This document shows, one piece after another, positions 9,271 to 26,937 of a DNA stretch of 64,000 nucleotides (the stretch's first letter is position 1; the number at the start of each line of letters is the position of its first letter). Source of the stretch: Martelella mediterranea (lineage in GTDB: Bacteria; Pseudomonadota; Alphaproteobacteria; Rhizobiales; Rhizobiaceae); the NCBI RefSeq assembly GCF_021021415.1, contig NZ_JAINWJ010000016.1, positions 62,001 to 126,000 on the forward strand, in the 5' to 3' direction. The notes beneath the pieces were generated by a model. That model was not told the origin of the DNA, made no database searches, and was given only the letters and a program-made list of their open reading frames with translations. A program made the translations under genes and the position numbers.

Positions 9271-9298
9271 AATGGTCGGAGTGGAGAGATTCGAACTC
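9271..9298. repeat. attL: 28-bp copy of the tRNA-Pro 3' end
   Basis: The 28 bases here are identical to 26859–26886. They correspond to the T-arm, acceptor 3' strand and CCA of tRNA-Pro(TGG) on the minus strand plus two flanking bases. The match stops abruptly at 9299 (GT here, CC in the tRNA). This marks the integrase-distal end of the integrated element, while the complete tRNA stays at the other end. Confidence 0.93.
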
Positions 9299-9407
9299 GT
9301 ATACCTCATTGAAAAACAAGGATAATTTCCGACAATTGTAACGGTGTGACGGCCTGCTTTCTGTTCTTAATTCGCGTATATCTACGCCTGCTTTACCCAA
9401 AAGAAAA

Positions 9408-9430
9408 GCCCGCCGAGTTTCTCAGCGGGC
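9408..9430 (-). terminator. Rho-independent terminator at the left end of the element
   Basis: A 10-bp stem with one mismatch (GCCCGC.GAG / CTC.GCGGGC) has a 3-base loop and, read on the minus strand, is followed by TTTTCTTTTG. It sits 14 bp beyond the stop of the 46-residue ORF, so it ends the leftmost minus-strand transcript just before attL. Confidence 0.8.
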
Positions 9431-9443
9431 TTCTTGTAGTCAG

Positions 9444-9584
9444 CTATTTATTGCCTTTTTTTTCGTCCTGAGACAAAACCGATGCGGCCAGCTTTTTCAC
9501 ATCAGACGATGTAGCCTTTTTGCTGCCCGACAAAATCTTGCTAGCAAGACTGGAAGTCGAGGAAGACGATTGTTTCTTCGCCAT
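9444..9584 (-). CDS. Small serine/lysine-rich hypothetical protein, 46 aa
   Basis: The product begins MAKKQSSSSTSSLASKILSG and is composed mainly of Ser, Lys and Ala with two short predicted helices. I know no function for it. Its start codon overlaps the stop of the HTH gene upstream (ATGATG with TGA embedded), and a strong AAGGAGGG lies just before, spaced best for the second ATG at 9584. Overlap and ribosome site suggest translational coupling to the HTH protein. A terminator follows directly, which supports a real two-gene transcript. Confidence 0.7.
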   Translation of the reverse strand: MAKKQSSSSTSSLASKILSGSKKATSSDVKKLAASVLSQDEKKGNK

Positions 9585-9766
9585 CATACCCTCCTTTCCG
9601 GCGCAATATCGCCGAATTTTTTACCAGTCTTGATTTCGCTAACACGCCCCGGATTGATACCGAAACGCGCGGCGATATCGTGCTGCATCATATTTTGTTT
9701 CAAGAGCCGCTTGATATCTGCAGCCATTTCCGCCGTAACACGCGGCGAGCGTCGACTAGTTGACAT
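9584..9766 (-). CDS. Small helix-turn-helix protein
   Basis: The 60-residue product contains a helix-turn-helix: MAADIKRLLKQN, then MQHDIAARFGINPGRVSEI, in which the second helix resembles a DNA-recognition helix. Small proteins of this shape are widespread in alphaproteobacterial genomes and prophages. Its job here may be regulation of the element, as no larger repressor is present. It precedes and overlaps the 46-residue gene. An AAGGAG-like site lies just upstream of its start (reverse of CTCCTT at 9772–9777). Confidence 0.75.
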   Translation of the reverse strand: MSTSRRSPRVTAEMAADIKRLLKQNMMQHDIAARFGINPGRVSEIKTGKKFGDIAPERRV

Positions 9767-10067
9767 AAATTCTCCTTTATGTCGTTCGCTTCGCCTTGTT
9801 CTAGACTCTTAGGTCATATACGTTCCCGACTGTAACGGTGGGAATCAAACCGCTAGAACATCCGCACGGCGAAGCTTGTTTTCGTGTGCGGTCACGCTTG
9901 TGCCCGGATCAATGCTGTTTTGGCGAACAGCTTGGCCGGGGTTCGCGAATCGAGAACGTTCCGCGAACACAATTATTACGGCCCAAGGGTGACCTGTGTC
10001 TAGTCTCGCGCCGGTTCTTGCTTTGATTTCGCCAGTTACCCCCAATATGCACAGCCTAATAAAAAGA
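9767..10067. other. Non-coding gap with two inverted repeats
   Basis: No convincing gene is seen in these 300 bases. There is a hairpin at 9862–9891 (CCGCAC and CGAA paired with TTCG and GTGCGG) and a spaced inverted repeat GTTCGCG/CGCGAAC at about 9943–9970. The promoter for the HTH operon should lie near 9770–9840. Confidence 0.5.
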
Positions 10068-10089
10068 CCCGCCGAGTTTCCCCGGCGGG
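10068..10089 (-). terminator. Rho-independent terminator after the 44-residue gene
   Basis: A perfect 7-bp GC stem (CCCGCCG/CGGCGGG) with an 8-base loop is followed on the minus strand by TCTTTTTATT. It lies 10 bp past the stop of the gene at 10099–10233, closing the operon that starts further right. Confidence 0.85.
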
Positions 10090-10098
10090 CCTGCTTGA

Positions 10099-10233
10099 TC
10101 AGTATTTGACCGATACCGCCTTTACGCGGACGCGGGGCCTGTCCTTTTCCGGCCTGTTCTTATTAGCCGGGCGCGGCTCAAGTTTCGCCTGAGAGCCGCT
10201 TACGAGGGCCTTCAAAGCAGGTGACAGCGCCAT
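10099..10233 (-). CDS. Small basic hypothetical protein, 44 aa
   Basis: The product MALSPALKALVSGSQAK... ends in an Arg/Lys-rich tail and has no recognised domain. Its ATG overlaps the stop of the preceding gene as TAATG, a usual sign of translational reinitiation, and a terminator follows at once. It is likely to be the last gene of the operon 11398→10099. Basic charge would fit nucleic-acid contact, but this is only inference. Confidence 0.6.
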   Translation of the reverse strand: MALSPALKALVSGSQAKLEPRPANKNRPEKDRPRVRVKAVSVKY

Positions 10234-10850
10234 TATGCGGTTTCCCGCGCCAGCTTCGAGGCGTCATAGTGACCGCTGGCAATCAGGTGAACGCTGCCAA
10301 AGTCGATTTCCTTGCGCTTGATGCCCGGCGCGGCATACTTCCAGAAGCGCGCCCGCGTCAGATTATCCATGGGGATACGGTAGCCTGTCATCGGCTTCGA
10401 GATTTCCGCCACCTTCGAAAGGTTTGCTTCGGTCGGGGCATTGCAGAAAGTGTTGATCGCCTTCCGCGTGGATTCCACGATGCCGCTTTCCTTGAAGCGA
10501 CCGACGATAAGGACTTCAATGTTATGCGAAATGCCAAGCGCCATATCGCCCTTCTCTTCGAGCAACGCCAAAGCGTCACCTTCTGAAATGCCTTCATTGA
10601 GGAGGCCGTTAAGATAGCTTGCAGCGCCGTGCTGCAGTTCGATCAAATCGGCGACGCCGTCTTCGACACTGGCAGAGACGCCTTCGGCGAGGTCCGTCTT
10701 GAGATAATCGGCGAGCGTTGAATCCGGGGCGGATTTCGTGATATCCATGTTGTGTCCTTTGACTTCATTGTTAAGGGGTGTGCCAGAAAGCGGCGCGGTG
10801 CGGTCGCCAAACTCAACCGCGCTGCTTTCATTCATTTCATGCTTCGGCAT
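10233..10850 (-). CDS. Hypothetical element protein, 205 aa
   Basis: I do not recognise this protein. It is mostly helical with a C-terminal segment (YRIPMDNLTRARFWKYAAPGIKRKEIDFGSVHLIASGHYDASKLARE) that looks ordered, and no signal peptide or membrane segment. The ATG at 10850 has AGGAG eight bases upstream. An in-frame ATG at 10748 also has AAAGGA before it, so two products are possible. It follows the gene 10862–11398 by 11 bp and overlaps the next gene by TAATG. Confidence 0.7.
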   Translation of the reverse strand: MPKHEMNESSAVEFGDRTAPLSGTPLNNEVKGHNMDITKSAPDSTLADYLKTDLAEGVSASVEDGVADLIELQHGAASYLNGLLNEGISEGDALALLEEKGDMALGISHNIEVLIVGRFKESGIVESTRKAINTFCNAPTEANLSKVAEISKPMTGYRIPMDNLTRARFWKYAAPGIKRKEIDFGSVHLIASGHYDASKLARETA

Positions 10851-10861
10851 ATTCCGTTCTC

Positions 10862-11398
10862 CTAAATGCCTTTGAGTTGATATTCCGGGAAGGCGTGGCG
10901 CGTCTGCTTTTCGAGGCGTTCCAGCATCTTCTGAAGGCGCACAATATCCTTGAGCGCTTGTTTCCGGGTTCCGGGGTCCGTCAGGTCGGACGCTTCAATC
11001 TCTTTTATTCGTTCTGTGATCTGCTCCTTTTTGTATCTGTTGATGACACTGGCGAAACAGTGAGCCGCTCCAATGAGATCGTCGACAAGACGCTCAGCGC
11101 GACCGATGGAACCCTCATATCCGAGGTATAGATTGTCGGCGGGATTATCCTGCCAACCGCGTTCAAACTCCCCGTCAATAGAATGCGGCCCGCTGTCATC
11201 TTCGAATTCCGGCCTCACTAAAGCCGAAAGGTCGAAGTGCTGAAGCCCAGCTTCCCAATCGCCGCCGTCACGCTTTTCCCCGATCCATTCAAAGAACGGC
11301 TGCTTCAGGAAGGGATAGGAGCTATCAAGCAGAAGCTTCAATTCCTGCTCTCTGCGCCGACGCATTTCCCGGCTTCTTTCCGTCGCTGTCTTAGCCAT
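10862..11398 (-). CDS. Hypothetical element protein with basic N-terminal helix, 178 aa
   Basis: The product starts MAKTATERSREMRRRREQEL, a highly basic helix common at the start of phage DNA-associated proteins. It then contains an acidic middle (EFEDDSGPHSIDGEFERG) and a C-terminal coiled-coil-like segment (KEQITERIKEIEASDL...). No known family is assigned. The ATG at 11398 has GGGAG upstream and is preferred to the longer frame reaching 11428. It is followed at 11 bp by the 205-residue gene. Confidence 0.7.
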   Translation of the reverse strand: MAKTATERSREMRRRREQELKLLLDSSYPFLKQPFFEWIGEKRDGGDWEAGLQHFDLSALVRPEFEDDSGPHSIDGEFERGWQDNPADNLYLGYEGSIGRAERLVDDLIGAAHCFASVINRYKKEQITERIKEIEASDLTDPGTRKQALKDIVRLQKMLERLEKQTRHAFPEYQLKGI

Positions 11399-11475
11399 AA
11401 TGAACTCCCGTGTCTGTTGGCGTTGCATCTAATGCCACGGCAACAATCCGCGGTCAAGAGTCCAAAAGAGAAAAA

Positions 11476-11673
11476 TCACGCGGCAAGCGAAATTCCTTCC
11501 TCGCGCACGGTGTCGGGCCAGACGTTCAGGGTCTCGCTGACAGCCTCAATAATCATGGACTGAAGGTCGTCGTGCGCGTCCGGCTCATAGTTCCGGGCGA
11601 TCTTCTTCAGCCGGTCGATGGCCTCAAAATACAGGTGGGCCGGGACATAGGTTTCGGGCTGATTGTCGAGCAT
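11476..11673 (-). CDS. Small hypothetical protein, 65 aa
   Basis: This 65-residue acidic protein (MLDNQPETYVPAHLYFEAID...) has predicted helices and no recognised domain. It stands 77 bp upstream of the gene at 10862–11398 on the same strand and has a GAGGAAAG sequence before its ATG. A palindrome lies about 41 bp further upstream and may control it. Confidence 0.6.
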   Translation of the reverse strand: MLDNQPETYVPAHLYFEAIDRLKKIARNYEPDAHDDLQSMIIEAVSETLNVWPDTVREEGISLAA

Positions 11674-11839: not shown

Positions 11840-12553
11840 CTAAAACCGCCCTAGATTTGGGTCTTCCTTCTTCCGGGCGCGCTGCTCTTTACGCTTCCGG
11901 GCCTTATCGAGCCTGATGCGTTCCTGCTCTTCCGGCGACAGGGCAAGAAAATCGGCGCGCTGGCGTGCCCTGTATGCCCGCTTTGCCTTGAGTTTGGTCT
12001 GTGCCCGCTGCTCTTCTGAAATGAAGGTCCGGCGCGTCTGGTAGTCCCGGCCTTCCGCAAGGGCCTCCTGCTGTCGCTTCGTCCGGCGATTGGCGTTGTA
12101 TAGCGCTTTACCGGAAAGGGTCTTGCGGTGTTCGTCTATCGCGTCGAATGCTTGCGCGGTGTGCCCGTGGGCCTTGTTCTTCGCGATCTCATCCGCCTGT
12201 GACTGTCGCCAAGCCTCGATAGCCGGGTTTCGCTTGGCCGGTTCGGGCGCATCTTCATTGACGAAATCGGCAAGCGCCTCATCCAAGGCTTGATTATCCG
12301 ATGCGCGCCCGGCTTCCTGTTCCGCCTCATATCGCTCCAAATCGGCAAGCTGGTCGTCGGTCAGAACTTCAGCCGCAACTTCGGGCGGGGTCTTGGCAGT
12401 GACCGTATAGGCCGCGCGCGCCGCTTCGTCGATGACCGCAAGCACGTCGTCAATTCTGGCGTCCATGCCTGAACCATTTCCTAAAGAAACATCCTCATTT
12501 CCTTGACTTTTAGTCATTTTATTCGTATCGTCATCTTCGTTCAAGAAGAGCAT
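11840..12553 (-). CDS. Hypothetical charged protein with basic C-terminus, 237 aa
   Basis: This protein is not recognised. The N-terminal half is acidic, and the C-terminal 80 residues are rich in Arg, Lys and Gln (RTKRQQEALAEGRDYQ, then RAYRARQRADFL and RKRKEQRARKKED), suggesting a helical nucleic-acid-binding tail. The open frame reaches back to a GTG at 12589, but the ATG at 12553 is preferred because GAGG lies eight bases upstream and the GTG falls inside a stem-loop. It follows the RHH gene. Confidence 0.65.
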   Translation of the reverse strand: MLFLNEDDDTNKMTKSQGNEDVSLGNGSGMDARIDDVLAVIDEAARAAYTVTAKTPPEVAAEVLTDDQLADLERYEAEQEAGRASDNQALDEALADFVNEDAPEPAKRNPAIEAWRQSQADEIAKNKAHGHTAQAFDAIDEHRKTLSGKALYNANRRTKRQQEALAEGRDYQTRRTFISEEQRAQTKLKAKRAYRARQRADFLALSPEEQERIRLDKARKRKEQRARKKEDPNLGRF

Positions 12554-12570
12554 ACTTTGAACCTCGTCTA

Positions 12571-12597
12571 GGCCCCGGTGGTTGCTCACCGGGGCTT
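12571..12597 (+). terminator. GC-rich hairpin with T-run on the plus strand
   Basis: CCCCGGTG and CACCGGGG form an 8-bp stem that is followed on the plus strand by TTTTCTT. On the minus strand, the direction of the flanking genes, there is no T-run. It lies between the RHH gene and the 237-residue gene, so on the minus strand it would be a leader or inter-gene hairpin. No plus-strand gene ending here is seen. Confidence 0.45.
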
Positions 12598-12600: not shown

Positions 12601-13026
12601 TTATGCTACGGCCTGTTCGATCTGGTCGGCGATATCGAGCGCCAAATCACCGGACAGGCTGATACCTTCCCCGGGATCGGGCACGAAGAGCTTGAAGCCC
12701 CTACCGCGTGGTTCAATCGAGTAGCCGCAAGTCGGCCCTACTATCTTTCGTCCAAGTGCCACGCTGTCGCGAATTGCTTCGACAAGGTTCACCGCGCTCT
12801 TGACGCTCATCACCTTCACCGGGCCGTCATCAAGCTGAACGGATACACCCGCATCCGTGCGCTTGATGACGATGCCGGGAATGTTTGCCGGGATCGTGCC
12901 TTCAGCGATTTCCTTACGGATCATATGACCGATGGCGTCAGAGACAGAGGTGTTGCGGGCCGCCGCTATGGCCTTCAACTGGTCAATGCGGCGCGGCGAG
13001 ACGTGAATGGTGTCGGTGGATTTCAT
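12601..13026 (-). CDS. Ribbon-helix-helix (CopG-like) DNA-binding protein
   Basis: Residues 4–42 (TDTIHVSPRRIDQLKAIAAA, followed by TSVSDAIGHMIRKEIAE) match a ribbon-helix-helix fold: a short beta strand, a helix, a turn and a second helix. The remaining 100 residues are an unrecognised alpha/beta domain that could bind a ligand or mediate oligomers. The ATG at 13026, with AGGA upstream, is chosen over the longer frame to 13086 because the fold starts there. Repeated TGTCGCG motifs 90–230 bp upstream would suit autoregulation. The protein is a candidate regulator of the element. Confidence 0.7.
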   Translation of the reverse strand: MKSTDTIHVSPRRIDQLKAIAAARNTSVSDAIGHMIRKEIAEGTIPANIPGIVIKRTDAGVSVQLDDGPVKVMSVKSAVNLVEAIRDSVALGRKIVGPTCGYSIEPRGRGFKLFVPDPGEGISLSGDLALDIADQIEQAVA

Positions 13027-13115
13027 GGGTGGTCCTGCGGTTCCAGTTAATACGATACCATTAACATTCTCCGGAATATAAGTCAATTCTTACGTTTATT
13101 GAGTCGGTGATTTCG

Positions 13116-13626: not shown

Positions 13627-15648
13627 CTATCTGGTCCGGCTATTGAGGTAGTTTCCGGGCCGTGACTGCTTTCGAAGCTCTGAAGCGACAAGCCCGCGAA
13701 CATTCGTCTCCATCTGTCGGGCCATCTGTGCGGCAAGGTCGCGGTTCTGTTCCGGCGTCCCTGCCGAACCTTCGACCGTGATCGGCGCGTTAATCGTGAT
13801 GGACTGTGCCGGGGTCTCGTTCTGGTTCGCGGCCATGCGGGCGCTAGGGGGTCGTGGCAGGCTTGACGCCGACACAAAGCCGCCCGACGCGTAGCCGCGC
13901 AAGGCATTGGACTGCATCGCTTCGAGATTGCGGACGCCAAGACGGCGCGTGGCCTCTTTGGTCATGACGAATTCGCCACGATGGACGATCCCGGCGGGTT
14001 CCAGCTTTCCCCCGTCGCCGGTATAGCCGCCCTTGTCGTAAAGGCCGGTCATCGCGCCTGCTGCGGCGGTTGCATTCGCAATGCCCAACTGCCGGGAACC
14101 GCCGAGGAAGCCCAAGAGCCCGCCGCCTGAAGTCCCGCCGAACAACCCGGCAAGCGGTCCCTTCCCTAGCAAAGCCGCCTGTGCGGTCGCCTGTATCAGG
14201 CTGTTAATCAGGCTATCGAGCGCCGCATTCCCGGTATTGATCGCCGGGACAAGCGCCATGAATCCGTCATAGGCGGTGTCTCTGAAGAATGCGGCTTGCT
14301 CTGCCGCCCGTGCCTGGGCTTCCTCTTCGGTGTGAATGGCGCTGGTCAGCTGCGCAATCTGGTCGCGTTCCCGTGCGGTCGCGGTCTCGCCTGCCCGCCG
14401 TAGGTTATGCACGATCCGCTTTTGCTCTTCGGTCATGCCGAGGGCGTCGTATTCGTCCTTCAGCGCCTGAATGAGCCGTTCAACGCCTTCGCGCTCGCGA
14501 TCGATCGAAGACGAACGCCGACTGCCCCCGCCGCCGCCAGAACCGCCGTCTCCGTTCGTAACAACTTCGAACGACTCCAAATAGGTTGTGTCTGAATCGT
14601 CGTCTTTGGGCTTTAGGCGGTCGTTCAGTATCCGCGTGATTTCCTCATCCTGCTTGTTCTTCTCGTTCAGCTGGCGATTGAGGTTGTTCAGGGTGCGACG
14701 GCGCTGCTGGTCCGTCATTCTCGGATTGTTTTTCGTCTCAAGAATCTGATCTTCAAGAGAGCTCCGCTCGTGGGCAAGTTCCGCCTGCTTGAATTCAAGG
14801 CTTGCGTTGCTGCGGTTCTCGAATTCGCGGAAGGCGTTGATAAACAAGACAAGCGCGTTCGCCGCTTCGACAATCGCCTTTTTCAACGTGGTGCCGACGG
14901 TCGTGGCAACAGTTTGAAACTGTTCATCGAGGTCTTCAGCCTTCCGGATGAGGTCTTCGTCCATGACCACGCCAAGGTCATTCGCGGCCTGAATGGTGTC
15001 GCGAATGCCCTGTTCCCCCTGCCCGATCAGCCGGACAAACTGCTCGCCGCCCGTGCCGCCGAAAATCTCATCGGCGATACGAATCTGCGCCGCCTTATCC
15101 AACTGCTGAAGCCTGCCGATGATCTCGGCAAACAGCGCGGAAGGGTTCTTCAGCTTGATCGCCAGCGTGTCGGCGTCATATCCCAACCGTTTGAAGGCTT
15201 CGGCTGCCGATCCGCTCTTGCCCTTGGAGGTGATAAATTCATCCGCGCGAAGGTTCATTTCCTTCAGGCCGTCCGTCAGGGCGTCAACGCCGATACGGTT
15301 CTGCTCCGCGACATATTTAAGCTCTTGGAAGTCCTTGACCTTCATCGCTGCGGTTTCGGCCTGATCGCCAACTTCGGCAACGCTGCGGGCGTAGCCCGCA
15401 AACGTCCGGGTAATCTGCGCAACGCCCCCGACAGTGAGCGCGCCGATAAGCCCGCCCTTCAGCATAGCGCCGACATTGGAAAGCGCACCGCTCATGGCCT
15501 TATCGATCCGGCTGGCAGACGTTTCTGCCTCTTTGCGCATGGCGCGGAAGTTCTTCGAGGTGGCGCGCTTCGTCCGTTCAAGATCCCGCTCGTATTTGGT
15601 CATGCGGGCTTCGAAGGTGACAAGCAGGCGCTTTTCGTCTGGCGTCAT
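13627..15648 (-). CDS. Phage tail tape measure protein
   Basis: The 673-residue product sets tail length and is ejected with the DNA in siphophages. It has an N-terminal coiled-coil region (residues 1–60), hydrophobic segments (LKGGLIGALTVGGVAQI near 65; PLAGLFGGTSGGGLLGFLGG near 515), a Gly/Ser linker near residue 375, and the typical C-terminal block PAGIVHRGEFVMTKEATRRL at about 551–570. By the common rule of about 0.15 nm per residue it would measure roughly 100 nm of tail. Its ATG overlaps the stop of the 41-residue mini-gene (TAATG). No distal tail gene follows it, which is abnormal. Confidence 0.88.
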   Translation of the reverse strand: MTPDEKRLLVTFEARMTKYERDLERTKRATSKNFRAMRKEAETSASRIDKAMSGALSNVGAMLKGGLIGALTVGGVAQITRTFAGYARSVAEVGDQAETAAMKVKDFQELKYVAEQNRIGVDALTDGLKEMNLRADEFITSKGKSGSAAEAFKRLGYDADTLAIKLKNPSALFAEIIGRLQQLDKAAQIRIADEIFGGTGGEQFVRLIGQGEQGIRDTIQAANDLGVVMDEDLIRKAEDLDEQFQTVATTVGTTLKKAIVEAANALVLFINAFREFENRSNASLEFKQAELAHERSSLEDQILETKNNPRMTDQQRRRTLNNLNRQLNEKNKQDEEITRILNDRLKPKDDDSDTTYLESFEVVTNGDGGSGGGGGSRRSSSIDREREGVERLIQALKDEYDALGMTEEQKRIVHNLRRAGETATARERDQIAQLTSAIHTEEEAQARAAEQAAFFRDTAYDGFMALVPAINTGNAALDSLINSLIQATAQAALLGKGPLAGLFGGTSGGGLLGFLGGSRQLGIANATAAAGAMTGLYDKGGYTGDGGKLEPAGIVHRGEFVMTKEATRRLGVRNLEAMQSNALRGYASGGFVSASSLPRPPSARMAANQNETPAQSITINAPITVEGSAGTPEQNRDLAAQMARQMETNVRGLVASELRKQSRPGNYLNSRTR

Positions 15649-15784: not shown

Positions 15785-17416
15785 TTACGCGGCGTTCATC
15801 AGCCGGTTAAATTCGTCGTCGTCGAGGTCTAGGATAGAGCGGGCATTGTCGTTGGCCGCTGCCCGGAAGATCGCCAGCGCCGAGGCAATCGCGCCGTCAA
15901 TGTGGTTGCTGTGCCGGGTGCCCTTGTGCATCGAGGTCAGGCCGCTGGCATTGGTCGCCCGCTTCACCACGACGCTTTCGAAGTGGTTGCGAAGGATCGG
16001 GTGACCGCCGTGGCGGATGCGACGGCCATTCACGACACGCTCAAGGTCGCAAATCGGGCCGTGCATGTTCTTCGGGCTTTGCGGGTGCTGAAACACTTCA
16101 ATGCCGTGGTTCATCAGCTTCTTCATGATCGGCCCGGCAAGCGACGGGTCAAAAACGACTTCCTGAACGTTGTAGGTGCCGCAAAGGTCAATGATCTTGT
16201 CGGCAATCGTGTCCGGTTCGATGGTCGGGCCGTCGCAGACGTTCAAAAGCTCTTCGTCCCGGTATCGGGGATAAGGCACCTGCTCAAGACGGGCTTTTTC
16301 GTCCAGCCCTTCGGAAGGCAGATAAAACCACGGGTGAACCGAAATGCGCCCGTCGCTGTGCTTCCACGCCCCGACAATCGCGGTCAGGTCGCCGGAACGG
16401 GAAAGGTCAACGCCAAGCCAACATGGCAGTTTTTCCAGTTCGCCAAGCTCAAAATGCGGATCAAGGCCAGCGTCATAAACGGCCATATCGAAGAGCGGAT
16501 CGCGTGACGCGGCCTGCCATACGTTCAAGCCGAGCTGCTGAAACTCGTAGCGGGTCGGCGGGCTGACTTTCGCCTTCCGCGCCCAATCACGCATTCCCTC
16601 AAGGTCAGGAAAACCATGAGCTAGGCCGGGGTTTGCCTTCGGCCACGTCGCTTCATCCTCCCAATCATCGCCGGGTTCGGCCTGAAACAAGATTGGCAAA
16701 AAAGTCGGGTCGTCATGTTCGCCGGTCGCAACCTTACAAGCATAGTCGTAAAGCTCGAAACCGACGTTATCCTGTCCGCGCCCTGCCGTGGTGCAAATGA
16801 TCATTAGGGGTTCGCTGGTCTTGACCATGCCGGAAGAGAGAGCTTCCCAAAGGTCGCGGCCCTGCCACTTGTGGATTTCATCGACAAGAATGAAGTTAGG
16901 CGTCGTGCCGTGCTGGGCCTTGCCGTCGCTGGAAACTGCTCTCAAGTTCGCCCCGCTGCGAGTGTTCAATATGCGCTTCATCCCGCCAAAGGCATTGTTG
17001 ATTTTCGAAATGGCTTTGAGTGGCCGGGTCTGCCCCACAATACTTGCCACTTCATCGAAGCCGATATTTGCCTGTTGACGGTCACACGCTGCAAATATTA
17101 CCTGCCCCGAAGGAGCGGCTTCCGGCCCATAAAGGTGAAGGGCGGACCACGCTGCGGCGTGACTGGTCTTCCGATTTCCACGGCCAAGCATAAGAAAGAC
17201 GGTCTTGATGATGCGGCGTCCGTCAGGGTGACGCGGGCCATAAATGCGCCGGGTGATCCTTTCGAAAGGGTCATAAAGCTGAAAGGCATTTTTTGGCGCG
17301 TTGCTCTTCGGATGCTTCAGCGCCCGGATGAAATCAACGGCGTCCTGCCCATAGCCAAACGGGTCATCGATCGGGCTGTTATCATAAATCCAGTAGGGGA
17401 ACGCGCTCTTAGCCAT
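15785..17416 (-). CDS. terL: Phage terminase large subunit
   Basis: This 543-residue packaging motor cuts and pumps phage DNA into the prohead. The ATPase half shows a Walker A-like GRGNRKTS at 78–85 and Walker B FILVDEIHKW with Asp179 and Glu180. The nuclease half begins GVDLSRSGDLTAIV with Asp337 and ends with the metal-site region HIDGAIASALAIF. It overlaps terS by 8 bp. In most phages terL leads directly to the portal gene, but here the mini-gene and tape measure follow instead. Confidence 0.93.
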   Translation of the reverse strand: MAKSAFPYWIYDNSPIDDPFGYGQDAVDFIRALKHPKSNAPKNAFQLYDPFERITRRIYGPRHPDGRRIIKTVFLMLGRGNRKTSHAAAWSALHLYGPEAAPSGQVIFAACDRQQANIGFDEVASIVGQTRPLKAISKINNAFGGMKRILNTRSGANLRAVSSDGKAQHGTTPNFILVDEIHKWQGRDLWEALSSGMVKTSEPLMIICTTAGRGQDNVGFELYDYACKVATGEHDDPTFLPILFQAEPGDDWEDEATWPKANPGLAHGFPDLEGMRDWARKAKVSPPTRYEFQQLGLNVWQAASRDPLFDMAVYDAGLDPHFELGELEKLPCWLGVDLSRSGDLTAIVGAWKHSDGRISVHPWFYLPSEGLDEKARLEQVPYPRYRDEELLNVCDGPTIEPDTIADKIIDLCGTYNVQEVVFDPSLAGPIMKKLMNHGIEVFQHPQSPKNMHGPICDLERVVNGRRIRHGGHPILRNHFESVVVKRATNASGLTSMHKGTRHSNHIDGAIASALAIFRAAANDNARSILDLDDDEFNRLMNAA

Positions 17417-19688: not shown

Positions 19689-19888
19689 GGCTTGGCATCC
19701 TTCAGGGTATCGAGGTGCGACACGATGCCGGTGCGCCGCTGCTTCGGTGTCGGCGTGGTGACGGACTGTTCCACGGTCCAGCCTCGCGCTAGGCGTTTGC
19801 GGATGGTGGTGGAAGGAACGCCGGTGACTGCTGCCAGTTCAGACAGAAGCCAACGCTGCCCGCTGTAGGTGAAGATGCTGCGGTTCAT
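19685..19888 (-). CDS. Small HTH-domain phage protein
   Basis: The 67-residue product MNRSIFTYSGQRWLLSELAA... contains a helix-turn-helix (LLSELAAVTGVPSTTIRKRL) followed by ARGWTVEQSVTTP, a pattern often found next to or fused with HNH and homing nucleases. The ATG at 19888 overlaps the stop of the HNH gene, and its own stop overlaps the next ATG. It may help the HNH protein or terminase find their site; this is inference from position. Confidence 0.68.
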   Translation of the reverse strand: MNRSIFTYSGQRWLLSELAAVTGVPSTTIRKRLARGWTVEQSVTTPTPKQRRTGIVSHLDTLKDAKP

Positions 19889-20238: not shown

Positions 20239-20852
20239 TGGCCGCTCGCAATCTTCATCTTGAGGGCGCGCAATCCTTCCCGGTCGAATTCGGGATCAAG
20301 GCCAGCGGCTATATTGCGCTCTGCCTGTTCCGGGTCGGGCTGACGCTCATCTTCGTCAGCAACGCCGTTCAGGGTCTTCAGCTTGGCGAAATAGGTGTTC
20401 AGCGCGCGGTTGATCTCGTTCGGCGTGGCGCTCCAAGCGGCGTCAGGGGTCCATTCAAGCCAGCCGGTCGCATAGTCGAAAAGCTGCTTGTAGAACGCCT
20501 GCAACGTCATGGGCTTGCCGCTGCCGTTCGTCTTCTTGGCCTTCGGGTCTGGTTCCGGGTCAAACATTGCGAGCAATTCGGAAAGCGGGCCGCGCACGGC
20601 GTCGAAGAAAGGGGAAAGCGGCTTTCCTACAATGCGCGAAAGGAAAGCCGCCGCATCCTGCCCGGAAGAGGAAGCCGACAGGATGATTTCGGAAATGATG
20701 GTGAGGTTCTGCCGATCCAGCGCCTTGAACATGGTCGGGCGGCTATAGCGGGCCTCAAGGGTCGCAGCGGCCCGCAAGGTAGGCCGAAGCGACACGGTGC
20801 TTCCACCGTGCGCAATCGTTACCTGTTCGTATGCGGGCCGCTGGTAGGTCAT
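20235..20852 (-). CDS. Phage tail assembly chaperone-like protein
   Basis: The 205-residue product joins two parts. The first (YEQVTIAHGGSTVSLRPTL, RAAATLEARYS) resembles the N-terminal chaperone domain seen in GTA gp10-like proteins. The second (FDYATGWLEWTPDAAWSATP, NEINRAL) has the TAC-domain pattern with a Trp-rich 'GW-x-PD-x-x-W-x-x-TP' core. Such chaperones coat the tape measure during tail tube assembly. A Lys/Gly linker (KAKKTNGSGKP) joins the parts. Family assignment is by motif only. Confidence 0.6.
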   Translation of the reverse strand: MTYQRPAYEQVTIAHGGSTVSLRPTLRAAATLEARYSRPTMFKALDRQNLTIISEIILSASSSGQDAAAFLSRIVGKPLSPFFDAVRGPLSELLAMFDPEPDPKAKKTNGSGKPMTLQAFYKQLFDYATGWLEWTPDAAWSATPNEINRALNTYFAKLKTLNGVADEDERQPDPEQAERNIAAGLDPEFDREGLRALKMKIASGQ

Positions 20853-20855: not shown

Positions 20856-22394
20856 TTACGAGGTCGCCATCTTCAGCTTGCGGAAGACGTCAGGGCGCAC
20901 GACGCCAGCGCCGACACGGCGGCGAGCATGGAACCGGATCATGCCTTCGGTCGCCAGAAGATAGGGGTTCGGGCGAACCTGAAGCTCGATACGGTCGTAG
21001 ATGCGATACCCGGCCTTGAAGTCACCGAACATGATCGGGAAAGCGTTCGCGGCCACATCGGGCATATCGGGAAGCTCGACAACCGGACGGCCAAGAATGG
21101 TTTCCGGCTGACCTGCCTGATAGGACGGCTGCCACAGATAGTTCCCGTTTCCGTCCTTCAGGGTGCGGATGACGGCAAGTGTGGTGCCGTTCATCACCCA
21201 TGTGCCCCGGTTGCGATAGACACCCGGCAACGAATACATGAGCTTGATAAGCTGGTCGGCGTTCAGGTTCGTGGCATGACCGTTCAGGCCGCTGGCAACA
21301 CCTGCTTCAGCCATGAAACCCTTCGGCTCAAGCGCGGCGCTTCCGTTGACAAATGCCAGACCTTCCTTCGCGCCGAAGTCTTCAGCAAGCGCAAGCCGGA
21401 TTTCGGCTTCGATGTCATGGGCGGCGTCTTCCATCAACCAGTTGCCAACATCGACATGCGTGGTCATTTCCTTGACGGAAAGTTCCATCTGGTCGAAAGT
21501 CGGTTCGGACGCTTCAGACGCAACGGCTTCGCCCTTCCATTTCGCGTTGGTCACCGTGAGACGCTTCGGTAGAATGATGGTGTGCGATCCGGTCGAGCGA
21601 ACGTCCGCAATGCCGCGAACCGGCGAAAACTCGACAAGGTTGCGAATGAATTCGCTGCTGGTTTCTTCCGGGGCGAGAACATAGCCGGGAGCATCGTTCG
21701 CAACGGTCAGGGCTTTGCGTTCAACCTCGCCGCCGCGAAGATAGTCGACAAAAGCCTTCACTTCGTTCTGGTTCGCCGGGTCGGGCTGATTGTTGTTGGC
21801 GGCGCGCGGACGGTTCATCTTTGCCTTGATCGTGGCAATTTCGTCCTTCAGCGCTTTGACTTCATCCGCCGAAACAACCGGATCAGACTTGGCCGGATCG
21901 TTCGACACTTCTTCGTTCTCGAGTTCGTTTTTCATGGGGTCTCCTTCAAGGGCTTTCACTTCGGTTGTCCGCGCGTCCGGGTGAACTGGGCGACGGCAAA
22001 GCGAGATTTCGTTGACAACAATATCGGTGAGGATGCGCCCGCCATCCGGGCGGGCCTTGTGTTCGTTGCGGCGGTAGCCAATCGACAAGCCGCCGGTCCT
22101 GCCCGCCTTCAGATTGCGGTAGGTTTCGCGGGCAAGCTGCGAACCTTCGATGAAAAGACGGCCTTTGACTTCAAGCCCCTTGTCTGTGACCGCGCATGAA
22201 TTCCAGACGCCGACAACCTCGCGTTCGCGATGCTCGTTGAACATGGGGACCGACGGCGCGAATTTGAAAGCGGTCGGTTCGATGAGGTCGCCGTAGGTGT
22301 CGGGCTTGCCGAAGGGCCACGCGATGCCGGTCACAGTTCCGGCGTCGTCGGCTGTGACTTCGGCCTTGATTTCGAGATTGCCGGTTTCGGTCAT
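20856..22394 (-). CDS. Fused HK97 prohead protease–major capsid protein
   Basis: Residues 1–150 are an S78-type prohead protease (WPFGKPDTYGDLIEPTAF; His55 in MFNEHRERE; Ser104 in GGLSIGY). After an acidic coiled-coil delta domain (about 155–195), residues 220–512 form an HK97-fold capsid protein (APEETSSEFIRNLVEFSPV, IILPKRLT, QPSYQAGQPETILGRPVV, FGDFKAGYRIYDR). Separate genes are the rule, so the fusion is notable. An in-frame ATG at 21935 (codon 154) has AAGGAG five bases upstream, so capsid protein may also be made without the protease. Confidence 0.92.
   Translation of the reverse strand: MTETGNLEIKAEVTADDAGTVTGIAWPFGKPDTYGDLIEPTAFKFAPSVPMFNEHREREVVGVWNSCAVTDKGLEVKGRLFIEGSQLARETYRNLKAGRTGGLSIGYRRNEHKARPDGGRILTDIVVNEISLCRRPVHPDARTTEVKALEGDPMKNELENEEVSNDPAKSDPVVSADEVKALKDEIATIKAKMNRPRAANNNQPDPANQNEVKAFVDYLRGGEVERKALTVANDAPGYVLAPEETSSEFIRNLVEFSPVRGIADVRSTGSHTIILPKRLTVTNAKWKGEAVASEASEPTFDQMELSVKEMTTHVDVGNWLMEDAAHDIEAEIRLALAEDFGAKEGLAFVNGSAALEPKGFMAEAGVASGLNGHATNLNADQLIKLMYSLPGVYRNRGTWVMNGTTLAVIRTLKDGNGNYLWQPSYQAGQPETILGRPVVELPDMPDVAANAFPIMFGDFKAGYRIYDRIELQVRPNPYLLATEGMIRFHARRRVGAGVVRPDVFRKLKMATS
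21935..21947 (-). promoter_or_regulatory. Internal Shine-Dalgarno and ATG inside the protease–capsid gene
   Basis: On the minus strand GAAGGAGACCCCATG places a strong AAGGAG five bases before Met154, exactly at the boundary between protease and scaffold/capsid parts. It would allow excess capsid (359 residues) over the fused protease, the ratio an HK97-type prohead needs. Confidence 0.6.
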
Positions 22395-22768
22395 GCAGCC
22401 TGCTTCTCTTTGGCCGCTTTTTCAGCGATCAGCTTCATCTCATTGAAATCGTCGGCGTCGAAGTTCTCGCCAAGCAGATAGAGGTGACCGATTAAGCCGG
22501 TGCATTCGTCATAAAGAAACGGCTTTAGAAGAGAGGTGTGGCCGTCATCAAAAGCGCCAGCGTTGAAATAGAACGCAAAGCCTTCAGTCGCGTTGAAGAA
22601 CTGCAAAAGCGCTATCCTCTGAGCGTAATCAAGATCAGCCTTGCTTGCCGGAACAGGCAGAGCGCCAGCGGCAACAGCTGCGGCCCGCGCGACTTGATGC
22701 CGCTCAAGCAGCCGATCCAGCATCATGAAGTTGCGGAGCTTCGAAATTTCTTCGGCGATCTTGCTCAT
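22391..22768 (-). CDS. Hypothetical phage protein, 125 aa
   Basis: The protein is mainly helical (ISKLRNFMMLDRLLERHQVA...) with an aromatic central segment (EGFAFYFNAGAFDDGH) and an acidic then basic tail. No family is recognised. It overlaps the capsid-fusion gene by ATGA and follows the chaperone gene without a gap, so it is an integral member of the morphogenesis operon. Confidence 0.68.
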   Translation of the reverse strand: MSKIAEEISKLRNFMMLDRLLERHQVARAAAVAAGALPVPASKADLDYAQRIALLQFFNATEGFAFYFNAGAFDDGHTSLLKPFLYDECTGLIGHLYLLGENFDADDFNEMKLIAEKAAKEKQAA

Positions 22769-23266
22769 TTAGACTTCCTCGTATGCAGCCCGCATATCGT
22801 CGGCCAATGCGCTGGCGGCTTCTTGCGCCTGTTCCGCGTTCATCCAGACGGCACGGAACGGATGGGGCTCGTCCGCCTGTTCCGGCTCGGACCACATGGC
22901 GCGGAACGAATGGGCTTCGTCCTGGGGGAAATCGAAATCATCTTCCGGGGCCGGTTCTTCCTCTTCAGGGCCGGCGTAAAGTTCCGTGATGATCTGCATC
23001 GCCAGCATGTAGCTTTCGACAAGTGGGCGGGCCGTGGCGTAGGTGCCGACAAGCCGGGCGGCTTCGGCGGGCGTGGTGCCGCCGCCGATCAGTCCAAGCC
23101 GGATAATCTGGTTGGTCTCATCCACGCTGTAGGCATGCTGACGCAACCGGGCGACAAGCTCACCAATGCCGAAGCCGGTCTTGGCTTCGAGTTCCTGAAT
23201 CAGTTCAAGCGTCGGGAAGGCAAACAGCTTTTCGCCGTCGCCAAAGAATGCCTTGATCGGCTTCAT
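22769..23266 (-). CDS. GTA gp10-like tail assembly chaperone
   Basis: The 165-residue product begins with FFGDGEKLFAFPTLELIQEL and EAKTGFGIGELVARL, then DETNQIIRLGLIGGGTTPAEAARLV, the pattern of GTA gp10-family tail assembly chaperones. The C-terminal 70 residues are acidic and contain a near-duplicate motif, HSFRAMWSEPEQA and HPFRAVWMNAEQA. It lies between the portal and capsid genes, away from the tape measure gene it would normally precede. Confidence 0.72.
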   Translation of the reverse strand: MKPIKAFFGDGEKLFAFPTLELIQELEAKTGFGIGELVARLRQHAYSVDETNQIIRLGLIGGGTTPAEAARLVGTYATARPLVESYMLAMQIITELYAGPEEEEPAPEDDFDFPQDEAHSFRAMWSEPEQADEPHPFRAVWMNAEQAQEAASALADDMRAAYEEV

Positions 23267-23454
23267 TCGCTGGTTTCCTCCAGAACGAGGGCCATGACAT
23301 TGAGATAGCCGGACATGACCTTGAGGGCGGTCTTGCGGGTTTCGCTGTCAATGTCGGGTGACGTGGCGATTGACTGTGCCGTCTTGATCAGGCGGGCGGT
23401 TGAATCCATCAGGCGCGTGTTTGCCGCGTCGAAGACGGCGGGTTTCTTCGGCAT
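23263..23454 (-). CDS. Small hypothetical phage protein, 63 aa
   Basis: This helical 63-residue protein (MPKKPAVFDAANTRLMDSTA...) is unassigned. It sits 2 bp after the portal gene and overlaps the chaperone gene by ATGA, with AAGGAATAACC preceding its ATG, so it is very probably translated. Its place after the portal might suggest a portal partner or scaffold. Confidence 0.65.
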   Translation of the reverse strand: MPKKPAVFDAANTRLMDSTARLIKTAQSIATSPDIDSETRKTALKVMSGYLNVMALVLEETSE

Positions 23455-23456: not shown

Positions 23457-24674
23457 TTATTCCTTGTCGTCGCCGTTGTTCGGCGTGGGGCGGGTGCTGG
23501 TTGCGTAAGGGTCAAAAGGCTCGTCCCCGCCGGGGCGCGGCGGCTCGTTGAGCTTTTCGAGGGCGCGGTTGGGCGTCAAAAGCCCGTATTTCACCTGTTC
23601 GGTCAGGTTTTTGGTGCGAGCTTCGGCGTCGGTTCGCAGAAGGTCATCAACCACGAATTCAAAATAGTGGTTGTCCTGTTCCTCTTCGGTGAGAAGAACG
23701 GTTTCGTAGGCGTCCTGCCAGCGGTCCAGCCATGTGCGGAGGCAAAGCTGCAGGAAGGACGCGCCCATCTGTTCCGCGTTGCTCCATGTGGCGCGGTTCA
23801 ACTGGAAAAGCAGGTGGGGCGGGACGCCGAAGACGCGCGCAACCTCATCAATCTGGAAAGTGCGATTCTCGAGATACTGCGCATCGGTCGAGGTCATGGC
23901 GGGCTGTTCGAAGTGCCAACCATTATCAAGCATGAACGGCGTATCCGCCGTTTGCTGCCAATTCTTATACCGGCGGAAGATGCTAGCAAGCTGCCCGTCC
24001 CCCGACATGTCGCCCTGCGGTTTCTCGTTCGACAAGATGCCAGCCGGACGCGCGCCGGACTTGAAGAACTGTGCGCCGTGGCGTTCGAGAACAGCAGCAA
24101 GGCCGATTGCCTCTTTGCCGAAGTGGATCGGGGATTTGCCGAGGAATGGTGAAATCTGAAGGATTTCAGTGTAGCCATATTCGCGGATGCCATCGGCTTC
24201 CGAAACGCGATAGAACGGTGCGCCGGTGTATTCATTTCGAAGAACGGTCACCTTTGATGGCTCAAGGCGCTCAAGCGAAAGCGGACGACCGTCTTCAAGT
24301 CGGTCCACACGGGCAAAGCCGCTGCCGTGAATGAGGGCGTCAGCCGTCAGGATTTCGCGAAAGTCACGGGCGCTTGCCCATTCGATCGCACGGCGATGCA
24401 CGATCTTGTAGGCAGGGTGACTCTTGGCTTCCTGTTTGCCCTTATCGCCGTCATCGCGCCAAAGCTTGCACGGCAACGAACCGCACTGTTCTGAAATAAG
24501 ACGCACGGCATGAAACACTGCCGGAACAGAAAGCGCCTTTTCGCCGCTAATGTTTTCGCCGGAATAAGTAGGCCGAATGTCGAACAGCGAAAAAGCTTCG
24601 GGGCTATTCAGCGCGATGCTTTTCCGTTCTTCGTTCGTGTCGGCGCTTTTCCGTGCAATCTTGTCAGCAAGCAT
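23457..24674 (-). CDS. HK97-family phage portal protein
   Basis: The 405-residue product is a standard-length portal of the HK97 family. Visible motifs are SVPAVFHAVRLISEQCGSLP near the N-terminus, the helical stem region (EIGLAAV-like, GLAAVLERHGAQFFKSGARP), and the diagnostic IDEVARVFGVPPHLLFQLNR followed by NAEQMGASFLQLCLRTWL. Twelve copies form the DNA gate of the head. It opens the structural operon, preceded by an AT-rich region with inverted repeats, and is not preceded by terminase genes. Confidence 0.93.
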   Translation of the reverse strand: MLADKIARKSADTNEERKSIALNSPEAFSLFDIRPTYSGENISGEKALSVPAVFHAVRLISEQCGSLPCKLWRDDGDKGKQEAKSHPAYKIVHRRAIEWASARDFREILTADALIHGSGFARVDRLEDGRPLSLERLEPSKVTVLRNEYTGAPFYRVSEADGIREYGYTEILQISPFLGKSPIHFGKEAIGLAAVLERHGAQFFKSGARPAGILSNEKPQGDMSGDGQLASIFRRYKNWQQTADTPFMLDNGWHFEQPAMTSTDAQYLENRTFQIDEVARVFGVPPHLLFQLNRATWSNAEQMGASFLQLCLRTWLDRWQDAYETVLLTEEEQDNHYFEFVVDDLLRTDAEARTKNLTEQVKYGLLTPNRALEKLNEPPRPGGDEPFDPYATSTRPTPNNGDDKE

Positions 24675-24792: not shown

Positions 24793-24817
24793 AGGGCGGC
24801 AACAAAGTTGCCACCCT
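24793..24817 (-). terminator. Rho-independent terminator after the 29-residue gene
   Basis: An 11-bp stem with one mismatch (AGGGTGGCAAC / GTTGCCGCCCT, minus strand) and a 3-base loop is followed by TTTCTGTTTTAA. It lies 4 bp past the 29-residue ORF stop. Confidence 0.85.
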
Positions 24818-24821
24818 ATCG

Positions 24822-24911
24822 CTAAAACAAGGCGTGAATTATTGCAGCAACGCCGAACAGGCACCCCGCAATGTTCACCTTGATTGTGACGACTATGAAT
24901 AGCTTTTTCAT
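24822..24911 (-). CDS. Tiny membrane peptide, 29 aa
   Basis: The product MKKLFIVVTIKVNIAGCLFG... is almost entirely hydrophobic after a Lys-Lys start, consistent with one transmembrane helix. TGAGGGC lies eight bases before the ATG and a strong terminator follows the stop, so it looks like a separate one-gene transcript between integrase and portal. Small hydrophobic peptides can be toxins, pinholin-like or membrane regulators; no function can be assigned here. Confidence 0.55.
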   Translation of the reverse strand: MKKLFIVVTIKVNIAGCLFGVAAIIHALF

Positions 24912-25202
24912 CGAAAAGCCCTCAGAGCCGCACCGGTGCAGCCCACAAAGGGTTGCTAAACTCCGGGCAAATTAACGGATTAACCGCCGTTCATCACATC
25001 ATCGGTCCGCCTCAGGTGTAAGCTTCCACTTTCAGCGCCTATGTGCCTTCCGAGGTGTTGGCGACCGCTTGGTCGTCGGTCTGAGCGACTGCATGCCAGT
25101 CCCGGCATAGGATAAGACATCACTTCTCAGGTGTTTTGCTTTGGCTTTCAAAGTCCAAAAAGAATGTCCAGCTATCTCTATATACCGATTCGTGTTTTAC
25201 TT
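24912..25202. other. Non-coding 291 bp downstream of integrase with several hairpins
   Basis: No gene is seen. The segment holds short stem-loops: CGACC-GCTT-GGTCG at 25062–25075, ATGCC/GGCAT at 25093–25108, and CCTATG (25038) able to pair with CATAGG (25106). The sequence CTCAGGTGT occurs twice, at about 25012 and 25126. This could be the 3' end of the integrase transcript, a structured RNA, or an origin or packaging site. Confidence 0.4.
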
Positions 25203-26768
25203 CTATATGACGAGGCGAACTTTCTTCATCTGTGCGGCTAGCTCCAACAGCTTCAAGTCGCTGCCGCCGTATCCGTCTGCCGAAGAGCCGGAAGAGCGCC
25301 CGGTGATGTAAAGCGCGGCTTTTTGGCTTACGTCGCTGAAAAGCGCATCTTCGAACAGGTGCCGGAACCCGTGGTTCGGCGGCGGCGCATCCGCTTCACC
25401 CTTCAGCGGCCCGCTGTGCATCCATTCGCGAAGGCGTTGGTCTTGGAAGGTGCCGGGGAAGAGCAAGCCGTCAGGTCGGCTTTGGACGAAAGCAATAAAG
25501 CCCTCATCGACAAGCACTTGATGGACCGGAATCTTCCGGCCTCGCTTCGTCTTTGTCGTGCGTCCCTCACCTACGCGCACGTTGATAAACCAATACCCCT
25601 GTAGTTCGAAGATATCCGCCCGCTCCAACTGCAAAGCCTCGCCGACGCGCATGCCGGTGTAGGCCAGCAACCATGGAACCCAACGGAAATTCGTCCTGTC
25701 TGTCTCCGCGCGGGCCGCGTCCAGCACGGTGCGGGCCTGTTTAAGCGTGTAGGTTCTCGTTGCGCTATCCTTGACTTCGACGTTGGGCAATTCGAGGAAG
25801 TCGAACGGCGTCCCCTTCGGCGTGTCCGGGAACAGCTTACCCCGGTGCTGCTTCTGTCCCCACGTCAGAATTGCCCGGATAGCCGCAAGCTTGTCGCGGA
25901 TGGACTTCCGGGAAATCTTGCCTTCCGCAAGCATGGCGTTGCGCCAAGCCTCGCCTTCCTCAAGGGTCACGGTCGCAGCCCGCTTGCTTCGGCGATGGTG
26001 TTCGAAGTCGTGAATGATGCGCCGGTATTTCTTCAGCGTTGACGCGGACAACTCGTTGCCGCCAAGCCCCATTTTGGTCAGGCGCACTTGTTCGGCAACG
26101 ATCGCCTCAAAGGTCAGTGCGTTGAATTCTGCGGTCGGCGCACTGTCTTCGGCCTCTTCCTCTTCGACCGCCTTTGCCAGTTCCGGGTGTTCAGGCTTGC
26201 CGGTGAAGTCGCCTTCGTCCCGTTCCATCGCGCGGCCAAGGGCTTCAAGTTCGGAGATGCACAAGGCGCGGGCAAGGGTGCGCCATTCAGGTGAACCGAA
26301 GACGACCGTGGTGTTGCCAAGGCGGCGGAAGCGTTCAATCCGCTCGCCAACGAGGGTTTGAAGCGTCTGGTTATCGAGGCGTCCGGCAACGCCTTCACGC
26401 AATAGCTCAACCATGCGGTCATCAATGCTAACTTGCGCATAGGCATCGGTCGCGTTGCGAAGCTCCAAGTCGAAGGCGATGCGCTCGTTGTAGTTCCGAA
26501 GCGCCATTTGATCGGCTGACAGCGGATAGCGCCCCGGCGTGATCGGCGCGCCGCTGGCGATCTGTGCTTTGCGCTCTGCGACGGCAACCCGCCCCTGCAA
26601 TGCAGAAACAGCCGTGGCGAGGCGAGCTATCGCCGTGCGCCGGTCAGGTCCGAGCGGTTCGCGAAGTTCTGATTTGTTTTCGAGGAAAGGTCGAAGAGGC
26701 TTCGGGATCACGATCCGGGCGAAATAGCGCCCGTCGCGATTGAGAAGATAGCGGTGCTTTGAAGACAT
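25203..26768 (-). CDS. int: Tyrosine recombinase / phage integrase
   Basis: The 521-residue product should integrate and excise the element at tRNA-Pro. Its C-terminal catalytic domain shows Arg374 in YTGMRVGEALQL, His466-x-x-Arg469 in NHGFRH, and the nucleophile Tyr500 (SSADGYGG). The second His of the usual LGH box reads TGR here, a tolerated variation. The N-terminal 200 residues form an arm- and core-binding region typical of rhizobial integrases. The ATG at 26768 is used; its GGAAG ribosome site lies in a stem-loop. It is co-directional with tRNA-Pro, 92 bp upstream. Confidence 0.93.
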   Translation of the reverse strand: MSSKHRYLLNRDGRYFARIVIPKPLRPFLENKSELREPLGPDRRTAIARLATAVSALQGRVAVAERKAQIASGAPITPGRYPLSADQMALRNYNERIAFDLELRNATDAYAQVSIDDRMVELLREGVAGRLDNQTLQTLVGERIERFRRLGNTTVVFGSPEWRTLARALCISELEALGRAMERDEGDFTGKPEHPELAKAVEEEEAEDSAPTAEFNALTFEAIVAEQVRLTKMGLGGNELSASTLKKYRRIIHDFEHHRRSKRAATVTLEEGEAWRNAMLAEGKISRKSIRDKLAAIRAILTWGQKQHRGKLFPDTPKGTPFDFLELPNVEVKDSATRTYTLKQARTVLDAARAETDRTNFRWVPWLLAYTGMRVGEALQLERADIFELQGYWFINVRVGEGRTTKTKRGRKIPVHQVLVDEGFIAFVQSRPDGLLFPGTFQDQRLREWMHSGPLKGEADAPPPNHGFRHLFEDALFSDVSQKAALYITGRSSGSSADGYGGSDLKLLELAAQMKKVRLVI

Positions 26769-26770
26769 TC

Positions 26771-26811
26771 CCAACTTCCATTTTGTTACGTGTTTTGTAA
26801 CAGAAAGTTGG
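26771..26811 (-). promoter_or_regulatory. Stem-loop covering the integrase ribosome-binding site
   Basis: Nested inverted repeats CCAACTT/AAGTTGG (26771–26777, 26805–26811) and TGTTAC/GTAACA (26784–26802) lie directly before the integrase ATG. In the mRNA the purine-rich GGAAG is in the 3' strand of the outer stem, so folding would block translation. The inner palindrome could instead be an operator. Confidence 0.5.
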
Positions 26812-26860
26812 CCGTAACCCCAATGAAATCAGTATCTCTAGCGATTTCAGGGCGTTTTAA

Positions 26861-26937
<77 letters not shown>

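Follow-up and report, generated by a model that had tools for sequence, protein, structure and literature searches.

A 17.6-kb integrated element of Martelella mediterranea with head, neck and tape measure genes: a probable satellite that would borrow the rest of its tail

Gene content, boundaries and integration site

The 64,000-nucleotide stretch of Martelella mediterranea DNA analysed here (contig NZ_JAINWJ010000016.1, positions 62,001 to 126,000 of the forward strand; 'the window') holds a 17.6-kb element bounded by a perfect 28-bp direct repeat (9271–9298 and 26859–26886). Judged from its sequence, the element encodes a phage head, a packaging motor, a neck, a tail terminator, two tail assembly chaperones (TACs) and a tape measure protein (TMP), and has no recognizable tube, tip, lysis or replication gene. 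We consider it probable that this is an integrated capsid-forming phage satellite which completes its tail with parts of a helper siphophage, its own TMP setting the tail length. Element proteins were scanned against PHROGs (23 window proteins) and Pfam (21). The features are listed in their order from the integrase leftward, in which the TMP gene is followed by six small genes.

26859..26886, no strand: attR, 28-bp repeat overlapping the 3' end of tRNA-Pro(TGG) (26861–26937)
25203..26774, minus: tyrosine integrase (phrog_1, E 1.5e–29)
23457..24674, minus: portal (PF04860, E 8e–79)
23263..23454, minus: 63-aa protein, p63 (no family at E < 0.1)
22769..23266, minus: tail assembly chaperone 1, PF11836, of the gene transfer agent (GTA) gp10 type (E 5.5e–18; helical AlphaFold2 model)
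22391..22768, minus: 125-aa protein, p125 (no family at E < 0.1)
20856..22394, minus: prohead protease–major capsid fusion (S78 protease–HK97 capsid; PF04586 and PF05065)
20235..20852, minus: putative tail assembly chaperone 2, TAC_6-like, fused (PF09550, E 0.004, under the cut-off; phrog_7493, a family of no assigned function, E 2e–16; conserved in relatives)
19885..20238, minus: HNH endonuclease (PF01844, phrog_2323)
19685..19936, minus: 83-aa helix-turn-helix (HTH)-like protein (phrog_3377, E 1e–6)
19335..19688, minus: 117-aa protein, p117, in the slot between HNH and gp6 (all-helical model, pLDDT 61, 3 rows)
18961..19263, minus: gp6-like head-tail connector (PF05135)
18552..19004, minus: HK97-gp10-like tail completion or neck protein (PF04883, phrog_5)
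18133..18567, minus: gp17-like tail terminator (PF11367, E 2e–15; phrog_176)
17816..18145, minus: head completion/closure protein (PF05521)
17409..17819, minus: small terminase, TerS (PF05119)
15785..17416, minus: large terminase, TerL (PF20441, PF03354; phrog_9, E 1e–117)
13627..15648, minus: TMP, 673 aa (phrog_10574, E 4e–155)
13627..14037, minus: C-terminal cassette of the TMP, from the GGYTG motif (about residues 538–673; from the cassette alignment; varies between elements)
12601..13086, minus: 161-aa ribbon-helix-helix (RHH)-like putative regulator (weak RHH match under the cut-off; homologs in relatives)
11840..12589, minus: 249-aa protein, p249 (homologs in L148, L156 and L164)
11476..11673, minus: 65-aa protein (present in relatives)
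10862..11428, minus: 188-aa protein (present in relatives)
10233..10850, minus: 205-aa protein, p205 (no family; single homolog in L157, 29%)
9584..9766, minus: 60-aa HTH protein (phrog_1468, E 3e–6)
9271..9298, no strand: attL, 28-bp repeat, exact copy of attR (empty site in G003)

The repeats and the Pfam and PHROGs matches confirm what the first-pass annotation had described: head, neck, terminase, HNH, two chaperone and TMP genes between perfect att sites. Its claim that tube, baseplate, lysis and replication genes are lacking agrees with the scans, in which no window protein matched a family for tube, tip, lysis or replication, save for a 'tail tube' name attached to the PF11836-type protein, treated below. 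It had also called the block one-way, overlapping and maintained; indeed, all element genes lie on the minus strand with short overlaps between many of them, their frames are open, and they are under purifying selection (see below). GC content in 2-kb windows is 0.52–0.60 within the element and 0.57–0.66 outside. No defence gene was matched by PADLOC at E ≤ 0.01 in 10 proteins.

The 17-bp core of the repeat matches the window at three places with ≤3 mismatches, where 0.15 are expected; the matches at the two repeats themselves are perfect. The integrase gene adjoins tRNA-Pro(TGG), and the related genome G003 has an empty site, in which the gene on the left flank of the element (presumably murB) is followed after ~20 bp by the same tRNA-Pro. 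About 1 kb between this gene and attL (window 8245–9255, with a 261-aa minus-strand ORF, or open reading frame, at 8300–9085) is absent from that empty site; genome G005 has ~0.9 kb of different DNA at this interval, partly resembling the integrase end of the element. In genome G011, a 160-aa ORF of L138 (about 16.8 kb) is 100% identical to the window integrase over the aligned part, and 237 bp beside tRNA-Pro are 96% like the window element; therefore, another element has used the site. A relative from IMG/VR (L166, 1480–1556) has its integrase directly beside tRNA-Pro(TGG), the site type of the window element.

GTAs occupy a fixed host locus without an integrase. The integrase, the att repeats and the empty site set the element apart from that trait, and a domesticated GTA-like particle is a highly improbable reading, the GTA gp10 type of the PF11836 chaperone notwithstanding. 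A second HK97 capsid, clustered with a terminase match and a tail-tip match on contig C52, would fit the genome's own GTA.

Related elements and the search for a tube

Window TerL found matches in 32 of 397 genomes of the order at E ≤ 1e–60 and in 6 of 385 genomes of the class at E ≤ 1e–100, its own genome being included in both counts; outside the window, the genomes sampled from the order hold 35 TerL places, of which 29 were examined. Among the 44 TerL-bearing elements that these and other relatives provided (leaving out L032, which is without TerL, and L004, which nearly duplicates L003), 22 have a TMP without a tube match, 13 have a TMP and a tube match (L108 on the strength of an odd 390-aa ORF), and nine are without a TMP match (L136 and L137 being cut upstream). 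The gp17-like terminator is present in 29/35 TMP-bearing elements versus 0/9 of those without TMP, and gp10 in 31/35 versus 0/9, counts that ignore kinship. By gene content, the related elements form a series: head-only, head plus ruler, and head plus ruler plus tube. Probably, this family finishes its tails with the parts of another phage.

A different use of the same genes is conceivable, in which a head-only satellite takes whole helper tails, and its TMP and chaperones poison helper tail assembly. Head-only relatives exist (9/44), and satellite interference with tail assembly is known from Rta of Vibrio cholerae PLE11, a phage-inducible chromosomal island-like element (PLE), according to PMC12987554. 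However, TMP occurs together with the terminator and gp10, and 13/44 elements add a tube; this therefore suits building more than poisoning, and we regard the poisoning role as unlikely.

In the TerL tree, the window element lies in starred clades with L106, L043, L007 (a Roseovarius record) and L008, then L111 and L124, all of them with TMP only. This clade covers several genera and, via the Roseovarius record, probably two orders. In L043, which comes from a different genus of the family, gene order is the same (TerL 72%, HCP 73% and HNH 71% identical) and the TMP is longer, at 866 aa; distant relatives also share the order. L008, a copy of this alphaproteobacterial satellite whose frames are broken in several places, comes from a record titled as an Exiguobacterium profundum metagenome-assembled genome, a title that is possibly mistaken. 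IMG/VR yielded 48 relatives, 41 of them at TerL identity of 68–86%. These 41 contigs (some partial, and a few apparently duplicates of each other or of L043) all carry gp10 and gp17; the PF11836 chaperone is present in 35, the second chaperone in 37 and TMP in 33, and the other eight stop within 2.5 kb of TerL, too short for most TMPs of the clade. A tube profile, limited in reach, matched 0/41. All but two are ≤20.4 kb (39/41; the two are about 27 kb), and no direct repeats of at least 20 bp were found at the contig ends.

The reduced gene set thus recurs in Rhizobiales genomes, where the first-pass annotation had suggested looking for it, and because it recurs in relatives the element is not a chance deletion. 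Among the loci examined there was no relative whose tail and lysis module is complete, a finding that would have marked the element as deleted. A decaying prophage that lost tube, tip and lysis genes by deletion would account for their absence from the element, and a full phage with a related TMP does exist: the TMP core is about 41% identical to that of the phi2LM21-type temperate siphophage. However, phi2LM21 differs in having a 46.6-kb genome with annotated tube, tip, fibre, holin and chitinase, a major capsid protein E and another gene order, whereas no complete temperate siphophage set (tube, tip, lysis) was recognized among the window proteins scanned. Moreover, the TMP gene comes immediately after TerL, which is not the arrangement in phi2LM21, the loci examined included no full phage with these genes, and the same reduced set occurs in the 41 IMG/VR contigs and in the supported clade. 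The open frames likewise show constraint: pN/pS against three highly diverged relatives ranges from 0.14 (TerL, L148) to 0.69 (gp10, L155), and two close tube-bearing Martelella elements give dN/dS of 0.02–0.10 in seven genes (TMP, 0.08). Decay by deletion is accordingly very unlikely.

Several relatives depart from the common layout. Two IS3-type transposase-like ORFs, called by eye, lie between tube and gp6 in L030 (8580–9808, genome G001), where gp6 looks cut. In L126 and L133, a TMP of 908 or 915 aa lies upstream of the portal rather than after TerL. L031 and L005 have tandem tube-like genes, the second called by eye and by mutual match. Four head-only elements (L134–L137; two in G009, two in G007) are placed by the TerL tree near the tube-bearing Martelella elements. 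L116 (10830–12515) has a 561-aa gene in the TMP slot after TerL with no TMP match (phrog_14159, of no assigned function), which could be an unrecognized ruler.

Could the element be a complete small phage with a tube of its own that escaped recognition? Its PF11836-type protein is called 'tail tube' in both Pfam and PHROGs. The AlphaFold2 model, however, consists of helices and a short hairpin (pLDDT 84, 27 rows), and RcGTA g10 (pfam11836) is termed tail chaperone 1 in PMC11409702. Because of the helical model and this naming, the PF11836 protein was rejected as the missing tube. Fold searches gave mild support: in BFVD, both matches at E ≤ 0.001 had no informative name, the best match with a name was a tail assembly chaperone (E 0.0019), followed by weaker matches that included proteins named tube (E 0.18 and 0.30); nothing was found against PDB at E < 0.001. 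Profile searches of solved structures matched no tail protein.

The slot between HNH and gp6 holds a tube in tube-bearing Martelella relatives and p117 in the window element. p117, the one window gene without assigned function given structure prediction, was modelled as helical with low confidence (pLDDT 61). We saw, by eye, no tube-sized unmatched gene common to the window clade. Among 90 unassigned ORFs of TMP-bearing elements, some of them adjacent host genes, PHROGs matched a major tail protein once and never a tip or a lysin (in the 25 of 50 matched families shown). Pfam (17 families) returned no tip, one lytic-transglycosylase-type DPBB_1 match (unlocated) and two replication-protein matches (PF23343); therefore, a replication gene may be present in some TMP-bearing elements. 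Tip references, searched with blast, had matches in 5/46 genome satellites and 4/41 IMG/VR contigs; seven of the nine are ORFs of 44–107 aa (E 6e–5 to 1e–3), and the other two, in L159 and L160, are a 216-aa ORF 39% like a T2-prophage protein of no assigned role. The same references matched in 13/13 control prophages.

Tubes are diverse, however, and tube references were without a match in 6/13 control prophages, so the main evidence that a tube is absent comes from the Pfam and PHROGs scans; p63, p125, p249 and p205 also remain without a family. Set against this are the lack of a shared tube-sized candidate, the helical (low-confidence) p117 model, the single major-tail-protein match and the absence of any recognized tip or lysis gene in the window. 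A self-sufficient small phage is distinctly unlikely. The first-pass annotation had named tube and baseplate domains in the unassigned genes as evidence that would overturn its view; no tube or tip domain was found in them, with structure prediction covering p117 at the confidence given.

Length and C-terminal end of the tape measure protein

TMP lengths in the window clade range from 673 to 911 aa, 29/39 lying within 866–911, and the window TMP is the shortest (in this set, L043 and L161 are apparently the same element, and the ends of L106, L154 and L185 are possibly misread). In an alignment of 35/39 TMPs, the window protein is without 157 majority columns (in runs of at least 8) after residues 309–396, and both its ends are kept.

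The two parts of the ruler differ in their similarity to phage proteins. In seven Martelella satellites, TMP residues 31–480 are 22–45% identical to phi2LM21 and T2 prophages, whereas over the last 150 aa the identity to five T2 prophages is 66–70% (L030, L003, L004), 59–60% (L038) and 65–67% (L037). T2 prophages reside in the genomes of L030 (G001) and L003 (G008), but G009, the genome of L004, yielded none. Strong and specific matches come from two co-resident pairs. In G030, the TMP end of satellite L033 equals that of prophage L202 in 399/400 columns with one single-base gap, and the match stops 3–4 bp past the stop codons. In G029, the TMP end of element L032 is 85.7% identical to prophage L200 over 364 bp, stopping 4 bp before the TMP end; weaker similarity extends ~100 residues further upstream. 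L032 gave no TerL or portal match and is for this reason taken as a different or reduced element. The shared end comprises the last 120–133 residues, the high-identity block starts at a GGYTG..GK motif, and TMP residues 31–330 compare poorly with those prophages (25%, E 0.36; 23%, E 0.003). Both L202 and L200 carry tip genes. At the level of sequence, this suggests that the satellite's ruler carries a tip-docking cassette, namely the TMP end that it shares with a co-resident prophage. That such a satellite could dictate how long a borrowed tail becomes, as proposed earlier, is plausible, with support from these shared ends in two other genomes.

Several results weigh against helper-dependent tail assembly on the element's own ruler, in addition to the tube references missed in controls. 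The comparison of TMP with terminator had only 4 independent pairs on starred branches, at a median p of 0.5. A strong and specific co-resident TMP-end match was found in 2 of the 12 genomes (G029 and G030) that each hold a TMP-bearing satellite and another TMP. Residents of the matching type occur in G001 and G008, but phages of the same type elsewhere match within a few bits; the G040 match spans both TMP halves but leaves out the last 60 aa; and no close TMP-end match was seen in G000 (the genome of the window), G003, G005, G010, G135, G206 and G393 (in the last three, the other TMP is that of a putative phage). The last 60 aa of the window TMP match none of 17 other panel TMPs (best E 0.17); similarity to the resident T1 prophage covers only part of its last 150 aa (44%, rank 3).

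The end of the window TMP is of a type conserved in its clade. In the 40 phage records listed out of 818, the matches to it include lambda-like phages of enterics, at 33–40%.

The T1 prophage (L027, G000:C15 20001–40000; ~33–42 kb from the element) is siphophage-like, with a 1374-aa TMP, a distal tail protein and a J-like tip; a J piece on C51 is 96% like that of L027. The first-pass annotation had advised looking for a helper prophage elsewhere in the genome, and L027 is such a resident. Its role as helper is left unproven, because the match does not reach the final ~40 residues and other TMPs of the panel match better.

Comparison with known satellites and a possible route to a chimeric tail

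Capsid-forming phage-inducible chromosomal islands (cf-PICIs) rely on their helper for tails alone, according to PMC10690885. Like a cf-PICI, the window element has its own major capsid, protease, portal and connectors, its own TerS, TerL and HNH, and an integrase with att sites, and it would need helper tail parts. Unlike a cf-PICI, whose tail comes entirely from the helper, it has a terminator, gp10, two chaperones and a TMP.

A regulation and replication module with an AlpA-type regulator and a primase is typical of phage-inducible chromosomal islands. No AlpA-type regulator, primase or helicase was matched among the window proteins scanned, which include only HTH- and RHH-like proteins. 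In contrast, two head-only relatives carry replication genes upstream of the portal, a primase/helicase in L112 (16762–19305) and a DnaB-like helicase in L130 (17216–18622), as found in selected ORFs of 6/9 head-only elements; classical satellites have the same arrangement.

According to PMC12987554, the chimeric tails of PLE11 combine its own TMP with the tube and tip of the helper and also involve a chaperone of its own. The window element likewise has a TMP and TACs without a recognized tube; the chimeric tail was demonstrated for PLE11 and is predicted here. PLE11 particles have the helper capsid protein and the contractile tails of a lytic helper, whereas the element encodes its own capsid fusion. 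Compared by description, the Streptomyces satellites MulchRoom and MiniFlayer (PMC10690885) resemble it in having their own heads and packaging genes and no primase, and differ in that the term tape measure is absent from that paper. Given the own-TMP tails of PLE11 and the helper-tail dependence of cf-PICIs, the element therefore seems to work, by analogy, like a cf-PICI head with a PLE-like tail strategy, yet it is filed as neither.

The suggestion that this is an undescribed kind of satellite is not supported: PLE11 builds chimeric tails on its own TMP, and cf-PICIs with putative tmp genes were sampled in PMC12987554 (figure legend and methods). Satellite TMPs are described in that source and were not met in the available parts of PMC10690885, PMC11409702, PMC10783043 and PMC12846349, a coverage that has most subscription papers and all bioRxiv preprints outside it.

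Production of particles might proceed as follows. In a cell where a helper siphophage is also growing, the satellite would pack its 17.6 kb into its own heads. The C-terminal cassette of the TMP would dock on the tail-tip complex of the helper, and the satellite chaperones would load helper tube protein around the satellite ruler. The satellite terminator would then cap the tube, and the chimeric tail would join the satellite head. Tail length would follow TMP length; tape measures span 0.15 nm per residue, which for 673 aa predicts about 100 nm. Related elements bring anything from none of the tail genes to ruler plus tube.

More tentatively, and with rather more doubt than for the window element itself, we propose that a large alphaproteobacterial satellite class supplies a graded share of the tail (nothing, ruler, or ruler plus tube) and adapts by copying the last ~120–135 residues of a helper TMP onto its own ruler, the cassette picking the tip and the ruler separately setting the length. 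If this is true, helper choice and tail length would be set separately. How PLEs manipulate tail assembly is described as enigmatic in PMC12987554. Overall, the family offers a natural series of tail self-sufficiency, in which the G029 and G030 elements look like captures of the TMP end of a resident phage; such captured ends would let the separate roles of ruler and docking end be tested directly.

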